A DNA stretch of 32,218 nt from Rhodobacteraceae bacterium CG17_big_fil_post_rev_8_21_14_2_50_65_11 (GTDB lineage Bacteria; Pseudomonadota; Alphaproteobacteria; Rhodobacterales; Rhodobacteraceae), in the NCBI GenBank assembly GCA_002783145.1, contig PFEX01000004.1, positions 1 to 32,218 of the forward strand, given 5' to 3'. The position numbers were made by a program, and so were the translations under genes. Shown one piece after another: positions 6,253-23,122 of this stretch. The notes beneath the pieces were generated by a model, which saw only the letters and a list, made by a program, of their open reading frames with translations, was not told the origin of the DNA and did not search any database. Every line of letters begins with the position of its first letter. Within the stretch, counting starts at the first letter, position 1.

Positions 6253-6720
6253 CGCGATGACCGTGAGCGTCGGCAGATCCGTCAGCCGAAGGCCAAGCGC
6301 CTGCATCGCGGCCAGCGAGATGCGGCTGCCCGACCCGGGCAAACCGCCGCTCGGGTAGAGGATGACCTCTGCCGTCGCGCCGCTCGCCGCCTCGACCCGG
6401 CCTTGTGTCTGCACCGACACCAGCGGCGTCTCCAGCCACAGACCGGGGCGCGCGGGATCGCCGAGGCTGGCAACCGTGGTGCCCAGATTGCCGGTCGCTT
6501 GCGGCGAAATCGCGGCCTCTTCGCTCTCGCCGCCTGCGGCGCCTGCGGCCTCATCGGCCGGATCGACTGCCACCTCCGAGGGCGGCGGCGGCACGTCGCT
6601 ACCGCGTTCGCCGCGGTCGAGGAAGGCGAGGGGTCGAAAATCGCCACCGCAACCGGCAAGGCCGGCGACGAGGCAAAGGGCAAGGCAGAGGCGAAGGCGA
6701 AGGCGAAGCGCGCGGGTCAT
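6244..6720 (-). CDS. Small lipoprotein of unknown function with conserved C-terminal LGTTVASLGDPARPGLWLETPLV segment
   Basis: MTRALRLRLRLCLALCLVAGLAGCGG: signal peptide and lipobox LAGC; Ala/Pro-rich linker; compact C-terminal domain. Confidence 0.7.
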   Translation of the reverse strand: MTRALRLRLRLCLALCLVAGLAGCGGDFRPLAFLDRGERGSDVPPPPSEVAVDPADEAAGAAGGESEEAAISPQATGNLGTTVASLGDPARPGLWLETPLVSVQTQGRVEAASGATAEVILYPSGGLPGSGSRISLAAMQALGLRLTDLPTLTVIAAG

Positions 6721-16319: not shown

Positions 16320-18029
16320 ATGACACTGAAACACATTCTGCTCGGGACCGCGGCGGCCTTCGCCCTGTCCCCGGCGATGGCCCTTGCCGAGCGCGGCTCG
16401 GACGGCCAGCTCAACATCATCTACTGGCAGGCGCCATCGACTCTGAACCCCTACCTGTCGGGCGGCACCAAGGAAGTGGAGTCGGCGTCGCTGGTGCTCG
16501 AATCCTTTGCCCGTTTCGACGAGAACGGAAGCCTCGTGCCGTTCATGGCCGAAGACATCCCGACCGTTGAAAACGGCGGCGTGGCCGAGGACCTGACCTC
16601 GATCACATGGACGATCCGCGAGGGCCTTCTGTGGTCGGACGGCACGCCGGTGACCGCGGCCGACGCCGTGTTCACCTGGGAATACTGCACCCACCCCGAG
16701 GGCGGCTGCGCACAGGCCAGCTATTTCGATGGCGTGGAAAGCGTCGAGGCGGTGGACGATAGCACCGTGACGGTGCATTTTGCAGCGCCCAAGCCGTTCC
16801 CCTACACCGCCTTCGTCGGCTCCGAGAGCCCGATCATCCAGGCTGCGCAGTTTGCCGACTGCCTCGGCGCCGCCGCGCCAGAATGCACCGACGCAAACTT
16901 CGGCCCGATCGGCACCGGCCCCTTCGTGGTCGAGGAGTTCCGGCCCAACGACGTGATCACCTTTGTCGCCAATGAAAACTACCGCAACCCCGATCAACCG
17001 GCCTTCGCAAGGGTGACCTTCAAGGGCGGCGGCGACGCGGCCTCGGCGGCGCGCTCGGTTCTGGAAACCGGTGAGTTCGACTACGCCTGGAACCTTCAGA
17101 TCGATCCGACGCTTCTGCTGGAAATGGAAGCCAACGGCATCGGCACCGTGGCAACCGCATTCGGCACCTCGGTCGAGCGTCTGCACCTCAACCAGTTCAA
17201 CCCGGATCCGGCGCTTGGCGACATCCGTTCGACCCAGGAGGGCGGACCGCATCCGTTCCTCACCGATCCGATCGTGGGCCAGGCGTTGTCGATGGCAATC
17301 GACCGTCCGCTGCTGTCCGAAATCGGCTACGGCGCCGGCGGACAGCCAACCTGCAACGTGCTGCCCGCACCAGAGCTTTATGCCTCCACCGCCAATGATG
17401 ACTGCCTCGTGCAGGACATCCCCGGTGCGATCGCCCTGCTGGACGAAGCCGGGATCGTGGATAGCGACGGCGACGGCGTTCGTGAATACGAGGGAACCCC
17501 GCTGCGGGTTCTGTTCCAGACATCGACCAACGCCGTGCGTCAGGACGCGCAAGCGCTGATCAAGCAGTGGTGGTCGGAAATCGGTGTCGATGCCGAGCTG
17601 CGCAACATCGACGCATCGGTGTTCTTCGGCGGCGATCCGTCGAGCCCCGACACGTTCCAGAAGTTCTACGCCGATATCGAGATGTACACCAACAACTTCG
17701 CCGGCGTGGACCCGGAGGCCTACATGGCCAACTGGCTGTGTTCGGACATTCCCAGCCCCGACACCCAGTGGCAGGGCGCCAACATCCAGCGTTTCTGCGA
17801 CCCGGCCTACGATGCCCTTGTCGCGGAGATGAGCCAGACCGCGGAACTCGAGGAGCGTGGCCGCCTCGCGCGTGAGATGAACGACATGCTGATGCAGTCC
17901 CACTCGATCATCCCGCTGGTTCACCGTGGCGGCGTTTCCGCCCATGCCAACACGCTTGGCGGCGTGCGCATGTCGGACTGGGATTCCGAGCTGTGGAATG
18001 CGGCCGAATGGTACCGCATCGGGGAATGA
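16320..18029 (+). CDS. Peptide ABC transporter substrate-binding protein (SBP family 5)
   Basis: 569 aa; Sec signal peptide MTLKHILLGTAAAFALSPAMALA; YWQAPSTLNPYLSGG, VTAADAVFTWEY, ALSMAIDRPLLSE. Confidence 0.95.
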   Translation: MTLKHILLGTAAAFALSPAMALAERGSDGQLNIIYWQAPSTLNPYLSGGTKEVESASLVLESFARFDENGSLVPFMAEDIPTVENGGVAEDLTSITWTIREGLLWSDGTPVTAADAVFTWEYCTHPEGGCAQASYFDGVESVEAVDDSTVTVHFAAPKPFPYTAFVGSESPIIQAAQFADCLGAAAPECTDANFGPIGTGPFVVEEFRPNDVITFVANENYRNPDQPAFARVTFKGGGDAASAARSVLETGEFDYAWNLQIDPTLLLEMEANGIGTVATAFGTSVERLHLNQFNPDPALGDIRSTQEGGPHPFLTDPIVGQALSMAIDRPLLSEIGYGAGGQPTCNVLPAPELYASTANDDCLVQDIPGAIALLDEAGIVDSDGDGVREYEGTPLRVLFQTSTNAVRQDAQALIKQWWSEIGVDAELRNIDASVFFGGDPSSPDTFQKFYADIEMYTNNFAGVDPEAYMANWLCSDIPSPDTQWQGANIQRFCDPAYDALVAEMSQTAELEERGRLAREMNDMLMQSHSIIPLVHRGGVSAHANTLGGVRMSDWDSELWNAAEWYRIGE

Positions 18030-18053
18030 TCCTCTGATCCAGCACGTCAGGCC

Positions 18054-18076
18054 CCTCCCCCCGTCGCGGGGGGAGG
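18054..18076 (+). other. GC-rich intercistronic stem-loop between SBP gene and permease genes
   Basis: 9-bp inverted repeat CCTCCCCCC-gtcgc-GGGGGGAGG, no U tract. Confidence 0.7.
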
Positions 18077-18134
18077 CGTCACTGCGACACACCCGTCATA
18101 ATACCAACAGACTTCTGAACCGAGGCGCCTCGCC

Positions 18135-19145
18135 ATGCTGACTTTCACGATCCGTCGCTTGCTGATGGCAATCCCGACGCTTCTGTTCATCAGTCTGATC
18201 ATATTCCTGATCCTCGACCTCGCCCCGTCCGACCCGACGGCAAACCTTCCGCTGACCATCCCGCCCGATGTCCGGGCCGATATCCGCGCCTCTCTCGGCC
18301 TCGATGAACCGATCCACATCCGCTTCGCGCTGTGGCTTCAGCAGTTCTTCGTCAACGAGCCGCTGAATCTGTTCGAACACTGGACCGGCTGGAATTTCGG
18401 CGGCGAGGATCGCACCCGCGTGATTTCGTGGCAGACCCGCAGCCCGGTCGTGGACATCATCGCGCAGCGCATGCCGCAGACCCTGTGGGTCGTGGGCACC
18501 GCCTACATCGTTGGCATCCTGATCGCTCTGCCCATCGGCATCTATTCAGCCTACCGGCAATATTCGATCTTCGATCAGGCTGGCACCTTCATCACCATGG
18601 TCGGCTTCTCGATCCCGCCGTTCTTCTCCGGGGTTCTGGTGATCGTGATCTTCGCGGTGCAACTGCAATGGTTCCCGTCGGTCTATGACACCACCCACGT
18701 GGTCATCGGGTGGGACAGCTTCGTCATCCAGATCAAGCAGATGATCCTGCCGGTGATGGTGCTGGCGTTGCAGATCACCAGCCAGATCAGCCGCTTCATG
18801 CGCGCCTCGATGCTTGATAACCTGACGCAGGACTATGTGCGCACGGCGCGCGCCAAGGGCCTGAAGGAAAGCACCGTCGTTCTGGTTCACGTCCTGCGCA
18901 ATTCCATGATCCCGGTGATCACGGTGATCGCGCTTGGCGTGCCGCAAGTCTTCGGCGGCGCCATCATCACCGAACAGGTGTTCAAGGTAAACGGGCTTGG
19001 CCACCTTCTGATCGGCGCCATCCAGAGTGGCGACCTGCCCACGGTGCAGACGCTGACCTTTATCTTCGCGGTGCTGATCGTTCTGTTCAACCTGATTGCC
19101 GATGTGCTTTACGGCATACTTGATCCGAGGATCCGCTATGACTGA
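18135..19145 (+). CDS. Dipeptide ABC transporter permease (DppB-like)
   Basis: 336 aa multi-TM; MLTFTIRRLLMAIPTLLFISLIIFLILDLAPSDP; EAA-type motif YVRTARAKGLKESTVVLVHVLRNSMIP. Confidence 0.95.
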   Translation: MLTFTIRRLLMAIPTLLFISLIIFLILDLAPSDPTANLPLTIPPDVRADIRASLGLDEPIHIRFALWLQQFFVNEPLNLFEHWTGWNFGGEDRTRVISWQTRSPVVDIIAQRMPQTLWVVGTAYIVGILIALPIGIYSAYRQYSIFDQAGTFITMVGFSIPPFFSGVLVIVIFAVQLQWFPSVYDTTHVVIGWDSFVIQIKQMILPVMVLALQITSQISRFMRASMLDNLTQDYVRTARAKGLKESTVVLVHVLRNSMIPVITVIALGVPQVFGGAIITEQVFKVNGLGHLLIGAIQSGDLPTVQTLTFIFAVLIVLFNLIADVLYGILDPRIRYD

Positions 19146-20055
19146 CCTGACCACGCTAGAGGCGGAAACCTACCAGAAGCCGCGCAACCAGTGGTGGGAT
19201 GTGTGGGATCAGTTCAAGACCCACAAGGGCGCGGTGATCGGCGCCGGGTTCTTCATCTTCGTGCTGCTCTTCGTTTTCCTCGGCCCGTTCGTCTGGACGC
19301 TGGACGCGCAGTATATCGATATCCGCGCCCGCAACCAGGGGCCGTCCTGGACGCACCCGATGGGCACCGATCAACTGGGCCGCGACATGCTGTCCCGGCT
19401 GATGGCCGGGGGCCGCACCTCGGTTTCCGTGGGGCTGACGGCAATGTTGCTGGCGCTGATCGTCGGCACCTTCGTCGGGGTCATCGCGGGCTATTTCCGG
19501 CGCCTCGACGGTATCCTGATGCGCCTGACGGACCTGTTCCTTGCGCTGCCGATCCTGCCCTTGCTGCTTGTCATCATCATGCTGTTCCGCGATCCGTTGC
19601 GCGCCAGTTTCGGCCCCGAGGCGGGGATCTTCATCCTGATCGTCTTCGTCATCGGCATCACCAGCTGGATGCCGACCGCGCGGATCGTGCGCGGCGATGT
19701 GCTGGCACTGAAGGAACGCGAATTCGTGCTCGCGGCCCGTTCCATCGGAACCCCACCGCACCGCATGGTGACGCGCCATATCCTTCCCAACGTGCTCAGC
19801 CCGATCATGGTGTCGGCCACGCTCGGGATCGCGACCGCGATCATCACCGAAAGCGCCTTGTCTTTCCTTGGCCTCGGGTTTCCGTCGGATTTCCCGACAT
19901 GGGGCCGGCTGCTGTTCGACGGCACCGACTGGCTGCAACGCAACCCGGAACGGGTGATCTGGCCGGGACTGGCGATTTCGCTGACCGTTCTTTCGGTGAA
20001 CTACATCGGCGATGGCCTGCGCGACGCGCTCGACCCGCGCATCCGGGGACGCTGA
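19138..20055 (+). CDS. Dipeptide ABC transporter permease (DppC-like)
   Basis: 305 aa from ATG 19138 (8-bp overlap with DppB-like); HPMGTDQLGRDMLSRLMAGGRTSVSVG; FVLAARSIGTPPHRMVTRHILPNVLSP. Confidence 0.95.
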   Translation: MTDLTTLEAETYQKPRNQWWDVWDQFKTHKGAVIGAGFFIFVLLFVFLGPFVWTLDAQYIDIRARNQGPSWTHPMGTDQLGRDMLSRLMAGGRTSVSVGLTAMLLALIVGTFVGVIAGYFRRLDGILMRLTDLFLALPILPLLLVIIMLFRDPLRASFGPEAGIFILIVFVIGITSWMPTARIVRGDVLALKEREFVLAARSIGTPPHRMVTRHILPNVLSPIMVSATLGIATAIITESALSFLGLGFPSDFPTWGRLLFDGTDWLQRNPERVIWPGLAISLTVLSVNYIGDGLRDALDPRIRGR

Positions 20056-20077: not shown

Positions 20078-21559
20078 CTATCGCACCCCGGCATCGCCGA
20101 GGCCGGCGATTTCCTCGGCGATCCGGCGAATACCATCGGGGATCTTTTCCGACGCGATGGAACTGTAGGCCAGACGGTAAAACCGGTTCGCCCCGTCCTG
20201 ATCGTGGAAAAAGCCACGCCCCGGTTCGATCACCACCCCCCGGTCATAAAGCCGCCGGGTCAGAAGATCGGTATCAATACCCTCGGGCGCCGCCATCCAG
20301 AAGCTTGACCCGCCCGTCGCCGTGGCCCCTGCAATCGTCAAGCCATGGCGGGCGATCGCCTCTGCCGTCACCGCGCGCCGCGTCGCGTAGGCCCGGCGCA
20401 TTCGGTTGATCTGCGCGTCATAGTGGCCGAGCGACAGGAAATAGGCGACGGTGCGCTGGATATGCCCCGGCGGGTGGCGCAGCACCAGCGTGCGCAGCGC
20501 ACGCGCCTCGCGCACGAATTCCGCGTCCGCGACCAGATAGCCAAGGCGCAAACCCGGAAACAACGATTTCGAGAACGATCCGATATGGATGACCGATCCT
20601 GCCTCGTCCATGGACTTGAGCGATGGCGACGGCGCGCCCTTGAATGACATCTCGAATTCATAGTCATCCTCGACCAGCACGATGCCCCGCTCCGCCGCCA
20701 TGTCGAGCAACCGTCGCCGCCGCTCCAGCGGCATCGTCACGTTGGTCGGGCAATGGTGCGACACGGTGGTGAAGACGACATCGGTATCGGGCGGCAGCGC
20801 GTCGGGCGGCAGACCGCCGTCATCGACATCCACCGGCACAAGATGACAGCGCGTCTGCATCAAGATCTCGCGCAGGCCGGGATAGGTCGGGTTTTCTACC
20901 ACCGCGGTGCGCCGTTGCGTCAGCAGGATCTGCGCCGCCATCCACAGCGCGTTCTGCGCGCCCATGGTGATCAGGATCTCCTCCTCGCGGGCGGCGATGC
21001 CCCGGCGCGGCAGGATGTGGCGCTGGATATGTTCCACGAGGCGGTCGTCATCCGCCTCGTAGCGATCGGCAGTCAGGATCTCGAAATCCCGCTGGCCAAG
21101 CGCCTGAAGCGCGCACTGACGCCATGTCTGGTGCGAAAACAGCGTCGGATCCGCCTGCCCGTAGATGAAGGGATAGGGATGGTCCTTCCAGTTGGCAGGG
21201 CGCAGCGGCAAGGCGGGCCCGTCAAACCGCCGCCCAATGGCGCGCGACCAGTCGATCCGGCGCCGGTCCCCTGGCCCGGAAAGGTCGAAATCCGGCGGCG
21301 TCGGGGCCGAGTCGGAGACATAATATCCCGACCGCCCGCGCGAATTCAGGTATTCGTCGGCCACCAGTTCCGTATAGGCATTGGTCACGGTAATCCGGCT
21401 GATACCAAGATGTTCAGCCAGTTTCCGGCTGGAAGGCAGCTTCTCGCCGGGCCGGAACCGACCCGACAGGATGCCCTCTGCCACCAGTCTTTGCACCTTT
21501 TGTTGAAGGGTTCCCGTCACTTCCACATCAAGGAAAAGGGACTCCACAGGGATCGACAT
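20078..21559 (-). CDS. MocR/PdxR-type GntR transcriptional regulator with aminotransferase-like domain (TauR-like by context)
   Basis: N-terminal wHTH SGRFRPGEKLPSSRKLAEHLGISRITVTNAYTELVADEYL; C-terminal PLP lysine motif GSFSKSLFPGLRLGY; divergent to Tpa-like gene. Confidence 0.93.
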   Translation of the reverse strand: MSIPVESLFLDVEVTGTLQQKVQRLVAEGILSGRFRPGEKLPSSRKLAEHLGISRITVTNAYTELVADEYLNSRGRSGYYVSDSAPTPPDFDLSGPGDRRRIDWSRAIGRRFDGPALPLRPANWKDHPYPFIYGQADPTLFSHQTWRQCALQALGQRDFEILTADRYEADDDRLVEHIQRHILPRRGIAAREEEILITMGAQNALWMAAQILLTQRRTAVVENPTYPGLREILMQTRCHLVPVDVDDGGLPPDALPPDTDVVFTTVSHHCPTNVTMPLERRRRLLDMAAERGIVLVEDDYEFEMSFKGAPSPSLKSMDEAGSVIHIGSFSKSLFPGLRLGYLVADAEFVREARALRTLVLRHPPGHIQRTVAYFLSLGHYDAQINRMRRAYATRRAVTAEAIARHGLTIAGATATGGSSFWMAAPEGIDTDLLTRRLYDRGVVIEPGRGFFHDQDGANRFYRLAYSSIASEKIPDGIRRIAEEIAGLGDAGVR

Positions 21560-21560
21560 G

Positions 21561-21662
21561 CTGGCCTTACCTCACGCCTTGTCTGGCCTTACCCCCAAAT
21601 GTGCGGGCACCCGGCGCGCTGTCAATGCACTGGCGCTATCTTTGCAGCGTTTCTGGCCCTAT
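21561..21662. promoter_or_regulatory. Four-copy direct repeat array, putative MocR/TauR binding sites
   Basis: CTGGCCTTAC 21561-21570, CTGGCCTTAC 21583-21592, CTGGCGCTAT 21630-21639, CTGGCCCTAT 21653-21662; start spacing 22, 47, 23 bp. Confidence 0.65.
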
Positions 21663-21722
21663 CGGTTCTGCCCAAGCCCCTGCACTCTGATGACAGACCC
21701 TTGTCCGTCCCGGAGGCCCCCA

Positions 21723-23122
21723 TGAACACCCCCTTCAACCCAAATGACATCAGCCACGTGATCGAGGCCGATCGCGCCAATGTCTGGCACCACCTGATCC
21801 AGCACAAGCCGTTCGAGACCGGCGAGCCGCGCATCATCGTCGAGGGCAAGGGCATGCGGGTCTGGGACGCGCATGGCAAGGAATATATCGACGCGGTGTC
21901 CGGCGCGGTCTGGACCGTAAACACCGGCTACGGGCGGACCCGCATCGCCGACGCGGTGCGCGAACAGCTGGTCAAGATGTGCTACTTTGCGCAAGCTGCC
22001 GGGTCGATCCCCGGTGCGCTCTACGCCGAGAAACTGATAGAGAAGATGCCGGGCATGTCCCGCGTCTACTACACCAACTCGGGGTCCGAGGCGAACGAGA
22101 AGGCGTTCAAGATGGTGCGCCAGATCGCGCACAAGAAATACGGCGGCAAGAAAACCAAGATCCTCTACCGCGACCGCGATTACCACGGCTCCACCCTCGC
22201 CGCGATGTCGGCGGGCGGGCAGGACGAACGCAACATGCAGTACGGCCCCTTCGCGCCGGATTTCGTGCGCGTCCCCCATTGCATGGAATACCGAAAGGAG
22301 GAGCTGGGCCTCGGCCACCTCTCGGGCCGCGCCTTCGGCATCGCGGCGGCCAACCAGATCGAGGAGGTGATCCTGCGCGAGGGCCCCGAAACGGTCGGCG
22401 CGCTGTGCCTTGAACCCGTCACTGCGGGCGGCGGCATCATTACCCCGCCCGAAGGCTACTGGGACCGGGTGCAGGAAATCTGCAAGCAGTACGATATCCT
22501 GCTGCATATCGACGAGGTTGTCTGCGGCATCGGGCGCACCGGCACCCATTGGTTCGGCTATCAGCATTACGGTGTGAAACCCGACTTCGTGACCATGGCC
22601 AAGGGGGTCGCCTCGGGCTACGCCGCGATTGCCTGCATGGTGACGACAGAAGAGGTGTTCGACCTCTTCAAGTCCGACCCGACCGACAAGCTCGACCATT
22701 TCCGCGATATCTCCACCTTCGGGGGCTGCACCGGCGGCCCGGCGGCAGCCCTGGAGAACATGAAGATCATCGAGGAAGAGGACCTGTTGACCAACACAAC
22801 CGAAATGGGCGCGCGGCTGATGGGCAACCTCACCGCCCTGATGGACAAGCACGAGGTCATCGGCGACGTGCGCGGCAAGGGCCTCTTTCAAGGTGTCGAA
22901 CTGGTAACGGATCGCACCACGAAAGAGCCGGTGGAGGAAAAGCATGTCGGCGCGGTGGTGGCCGAATGCGCCAATCTGGGGGTGATCATCGGCGCCGCCA
23001 ACCGCTCGATTCCAGGGCGCAACAACGTGCTCTGTTTCAGTCCGGCGCTGATTGCGACGGCTGCCGATATCGACGCGATCACCGATGCGGTGGACAAGGC
23101 CCTGACCAAGGTCTTCGGCTGA
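21723..23122 (+). CDS. tpa: Class III aminotransferase, taurine(hypotaurine)-pyruvate aminotransferase-like
   Basis: MNTPFNPNDISHVIEADRANVWHHLIQHKPFE...GAVWTVNTGYGR...YYTNSGSEANEKAFKMVRQIAHKKYGGKKTKILYRDRDYHGSTL...FVTMAKGVASGYAA; ggagg RBS upstream. Confidence 0.8.

Follow-up and report, generated by a model that had tools for sequence, protein, structure and literature searches.

What is the function of four CTGGCSYTAY direct repeats crowded between a MocR-type regulator gene and a divergent tpa-like aminotransferase gene? The repeats lie in the 32,218-nucleotide stretch of contig PFEX01000004.1 analyzed here (the window), which comes from Rhodobacteraceae bacterium CG17_big_fil_post_rev_8_21_14_2_50_65_11. 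A first-pass annotation had described them as one phased array that could serve both autoregulation and tpa activation, and had singled out their paired-pair geometry as unusual. The features that bear on the question are listed below.

20078..21559, minus strand: tauR, MocR/GntR-family regulator of 493 aa with a winged helix and an aminotransferase-like domain (open reading frame, similarity to GabR structures, linkage to tpa and xsc); start codon at 21557-21559
21561..21570, plus strand: TauR box 1 of the tauR-side pair, CTGGCCTTAC, directly upstream of the tauR start codon
21583..21592, plus strand: TauR box 2 of the tauR-side pair, CTGGCCTTAC, 22 bp from box 1
21597..21602, minus strand: candidate tauR -10, ACATTT, 17 bp from TTGACA (pattern chosen post hoc)
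21620..21625, minus strand: candidate tauR -35, TTGACA, six contiguous columns invariant in 8/8 group sequences within an otherwise variable stretch
21630..21639, plus strand: TauR box 3 of the tpa-side pair, CTGGCGCTAT (motif count, group alignment)
21653..21662, plus strand: TauR box 4, CTGGCCCTAT, second box of the tpa-side pair at a spacing of 23 bp; the expected tpa -35 overlaps its 3' end
21683..21688, plus strand: candidate tpa -10, CACTCT, 30 bp downstream of the box 4 start; relatives carry TAnnnT at this position
21722..23122, plus strand: tpa-like class III aminotransferase of 466 aa (identity to annotated Tpa and to the tpa genes of tauR loci)

The repeats, the regulator and tpa

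All four repeats were found where the first-pass annotation had placed them, and they are the only CTGGCSYTAY matches on either strand of the window, in which 0.19 single boxes would be expected. A scan of the 82%-complete assembly, which also used a looser 23-bp pattern, recovered only the window's two pairs. The spacings of 22 and 23 bp reported earlier are right, as is the single base said to separate the regulator's start codon from the first repeat, which puts box 1 just upstream of tauR. The 47 bp given as the distance between pair centers is instead measured from the start of box 2 to that of box 3; the centers lie near 21576.5 and 21646, roughly 70 bp from each other. Because 47 bp amounts to about 4.5 helical turns, the tauR-side and tpa-side pairs are offset by roughly half a turn and do not share one face of the DNA. 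The description of four phased repeats thus holds within each pair, where boxes are about two turns apart, and fails between the pairs, whose distance also varies among relatives.

The regulator aligns over long stretches with MocR-type models and with full-length GabR structures. Its architecture, a GntR-type DNA-binding domain joined to an aminotransferase-like domain, agrees with the MocR type assigned to it earlier. TauR of Rhodobacter capsulatus binds direct repeats of the form CTGGACYTAA (Wiethaus et al., 2008, as reported in PMC5320631), which matches the CTGGAC-type TauR box named in the first-pass annotation, and reconstructed TauR regulons have a similar motif in common (comparative study, PMC5320631). 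TauR acts as an activator that responds to taurine (PMC4254191), and autorepression is common among MocR proteins (PMC5320631). The window boxes agree with CTGGACYTAA except at the fifth and last bases, both of which vary in relatives; position 5 is C in the window boxes and likewise in many relatives. Box 3 additionally carries G for C at position 6, and its score is low (7.7 of 17.1 with a matrix derived from tauR-side pairs).

As far as the R. capsulatus operator is described in PMC5320631, the window resembles it in box sequence, direct orientation, a MocR regulator and taurine genes as targets. Compared by box consensus, the window differs in holding two pairs in one divergent intergenic region and in having C for A at position 5. 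The operators of GabR and the rhizopine MocR protein also consist of direct boxes about two turns apart, an arrangement thought to suit head-to-tail dimers, but have other box sequences and other ligands (PMC5320631, PMC10107442).

The tpa-like protein is 70% identical to the "hypotaurine--pyruvate aminotransferase Tpa" annotated in Paracoccus seriniphilus and about 68-97% identical to the tpa genes of tauR loci, and is an orthologue of the Tpa proteins of tauR/xsc clusters, with taurine as putative substrate. Neither an xsc gene above the family cut-off nor a tauA-like match was found in the window assembly (82% complete) or in W635 (G002, 99% complete). Genes of both kinds are present in four other members of the genus (G001, G003, G004 and G005), in which xsc directly follows tauR. 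A tauR-tpa pair without Xsc puts the fate of sulfoacetaldehyde in question. The regulator's neighbours considered here were tpa, xsc and an Opp-type transporter; a convergent transporter of this type follows tauR in the window (16320-20055) and in W635 (compare L012:6493-10206).

Box pairs across orthologous loci

A protein search of genome contigs yielded 80 orthologous loci, mostly from Rhodobacteraceae, in most of which tauR is linked to tpa and xsc. The 81 tauR upstream regions (80 loci and the window) were scanned with the published consensus, leaving the spacing free from 12 to 40 bp, and the best pair lay at 22 or 23 bp with a score of at least 17 in 64 of them. In base-shuffled controls, 64 of 1620 trials scored as high, with no spacing peak. 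A matrix built from the tauR-side pairs and run over the full loci returned 142 pairs at 23 bp and 74 at 22 bp, against 1-19 at each other spacing from 12 to 39; the sole other excess was a small one at 33 bp (19 pairs). In L032, L039 and L040, a third box lies 33 bp upstream of the xsc pair, near position 6427.

Target-gene sites provide the more independent test, since the matrix was trained on tauR-side pairs. Among genes with visible promoters, 58/59 tpa and 65/67 xsc genes have a pair upstream and on the gene's strand. No pair was found at the Paracoccus seriniphilus tpa locus (L128), which lies apart from its tauR. In L027 and L081 the sole aminotransferase divergent to tauR is a distant relative (about 30% identity), and the tauR-side pair there is spaced at 23 bp.

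Within the window's own group, the core of the tpa-side pair is invariant in all eight aligned sequences. Conservation is lower on the tauR side: W635, the closest relative, has a degraded pair there, and in L003, L004 and L005 the second box of this pair is weak and lies at 23 bp. The phylogenetic footprinting proposed in the first-pass annotation therefore came out in favor of the repeats, with the tpa-side pair kept throughout the group and equivalent pairs before nearly every tpa, xsc and tauR examined. With CTGGACYTAA-type direct repeats, a spacing of about two turns that is kept in orthologues, and an adjacent TauR orthologue and tpa, the array has the features of a TauR operator region.

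Spacing at tauR and at target genes

Pairs within 30 bp upstream of tauR are directed away from that gene and have a spacing of 22 bp in 57 of 70 cases, and the stronger pairs elsewhere in the loci have a spacing of 23 bp in 117 of 128. Counted per locus, 22 bp at tauR is combined with 23 bp at targets in 47 loci and the reverse occurs in one. The loci are mutually related, and p-values computed for these counts therefore overstate independence. The window follows this tendency, holding one pair of each class (22 bp beside tauR, 23 bp beside tpa); its group is an exception to the tendency on the tauR side.

The two classes also differ in their placement relative to promoters. The promoter-side box of the target class is usually CTGGCCCTAW, most often CTGGCCCTAT or CTGGCCCTAA, and TAnnnT stands exactly 30 bp after the start of this box at 37 of 111 target sites (mean, 1.6 per offset), so that the box's end falls on the expected -35. 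This layout fits what would be expected of an activator compensating for a weak -35. A promoter of the form TTGC..17 bp..TAnnnT, directed toward tauR, is straddled by the tauR-side pair in 42 loci, as would be expected of a repressor. The inferred tauR -10 of these 42 loci (e.g., L016 and L022, upstream of 5001) is only about 7 bases upstream of the start codon, suggesting that the tauR transcript may be leaderless or nearly so.

For Sinorhizobium meliloti PtauA, a requirement for TauR was shown genetically (PMC4254191). The PtauA-tauR region resembles the window in having a divergent regulator and target, a direct box pair and a -10-like hexamer, TATTTC, 30 bp beyond the start of its promoter-side box. 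Unlike the window, its divergent region has one clear pair, with a spacing of 22 bp, and its target is tauABC rather than tpa. The -35 and -10 elements of the window were assigned by inspection and are no more than suggestive: the candidate tpa -10 is by itself a poor match, and the candidate tauR -10 is not clearly common to L004 and L005.

A further possibility, which we consider less likely than not, is that a single base pair separates two functional classes, 22 bp for repression at tauR and 23 bp with CTGGCCCTAW for activation, so that spacing and box might instruct the same dimer whether to repress or activate. A split of spacing by operator class is not stated in the literature searched, a body that did not include the original TauR paper, and its novelty is accordingly uncertain. 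Operators of this kind are already known, and the 22/23 split is the only, and a modestly, new point.

Two probable adjoining operators and competing readings

Why, then, do four boxes stand together in the window? In 56 loci the two genes share a strand, with tpa upstream and having its own pair. The genes are divergent in five loci: L003, L004, L005 and L012, which are close relatives of the window, and L019, in which tpa lies at a distance of about 3.5 kb. In the window's group, the divergent order of tauR and tpa brings two standard operators side by side. The paired-pair geometry, earlier regarded as a special arrangement, resolves into a standard two-box operator for each promoter, the two not being phased with each other.

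We therefore regard it as very probable, judging by sequence comparison, that the array consists of two separate TauR operators, the tpa-side pair activating tpa and the tauR-side pair limiting tauR. A head-to-tail TauR dimer carrying taurine and PLP would sit on the tpa-side pair (21630/21653), whose promoter-side box would overlap the tpa -35 region, and would recruit RNA polymerase to a weak tpa promoter. The tauR-side pair (21561/21583) would cover the start of the tauR transcript, allowing TauR to limit its own synthesis. An activation site on the tpa side and an autorepression site on the tauR side are the most likely assignments. The latter draws on the behavior of other MocR proteins and on the promoter overlap in other loci, and binding by TauR, the direction of regulation at each pair and the role of taurine as the signal in this organism are likewise predictions. 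The direct-repeat operator and dual role proposed in the first-pass annotation are thus supported, as an inference from the anatomy of the region.

Other readings of the region fare less well. The tpa-side pair could serve both genes, standing immediately upstream of the tauR TTGACA and also activating tauR in positive autoregulation; TTGACA is only 4 bp from box 3, and the two are among the best conserved features of the group. We consider this unlikely, since TTGACA is a consensus element that should need no activator, the boxes are directed toward tpa, and the tauR-side pairs of other loci overlap the tauR promoter. Still less probable is a single cooperative four-box operator, on which two TauR dimers would touch or loop the DNA and the paired-pair layout would set the switch. 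MocR direct repeats have been linked to DNA looping (PMC5320631), and most members of the group have both pairs at least in part, but the pairs are out of phase and at variable distance, and one is degraded in W635; for these reasons the phased four-box operator was dropped as leading explanation. Most other loci, moreover, have the same pairs at widely separated places, with one pair for each gene.

The identity of the regulator is also open to challenge, because it also passes the cut-off of the NCBIfam PdxR model (357 vs 320 bits), and the repeats might then be the operator of PdxR or another MocR protein. TauR is favored by the TauR-type box, by the orthologues' position beside tpa and xsc, and by 51% identity to TauR from the S. 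meliloti taurine cluster, leaving little room for that identification. A chance origin in GC-rich DNA, for which nothing speaks beyond the shortness of the boxes, was rejected as having almost no probability, given how few boxes would be expected in the window and the retention of the tpa-side pair in 8/8 relatives, which refutes chance for that pair.

The reading as two adjoining TauR operators replaces a guess by a well-supported operator annotation and supplies a simple cause for an odd-looking array. The 22/23 bp split would offer a testable rule for how one MocR protein may repress itself and yet activate its targets.
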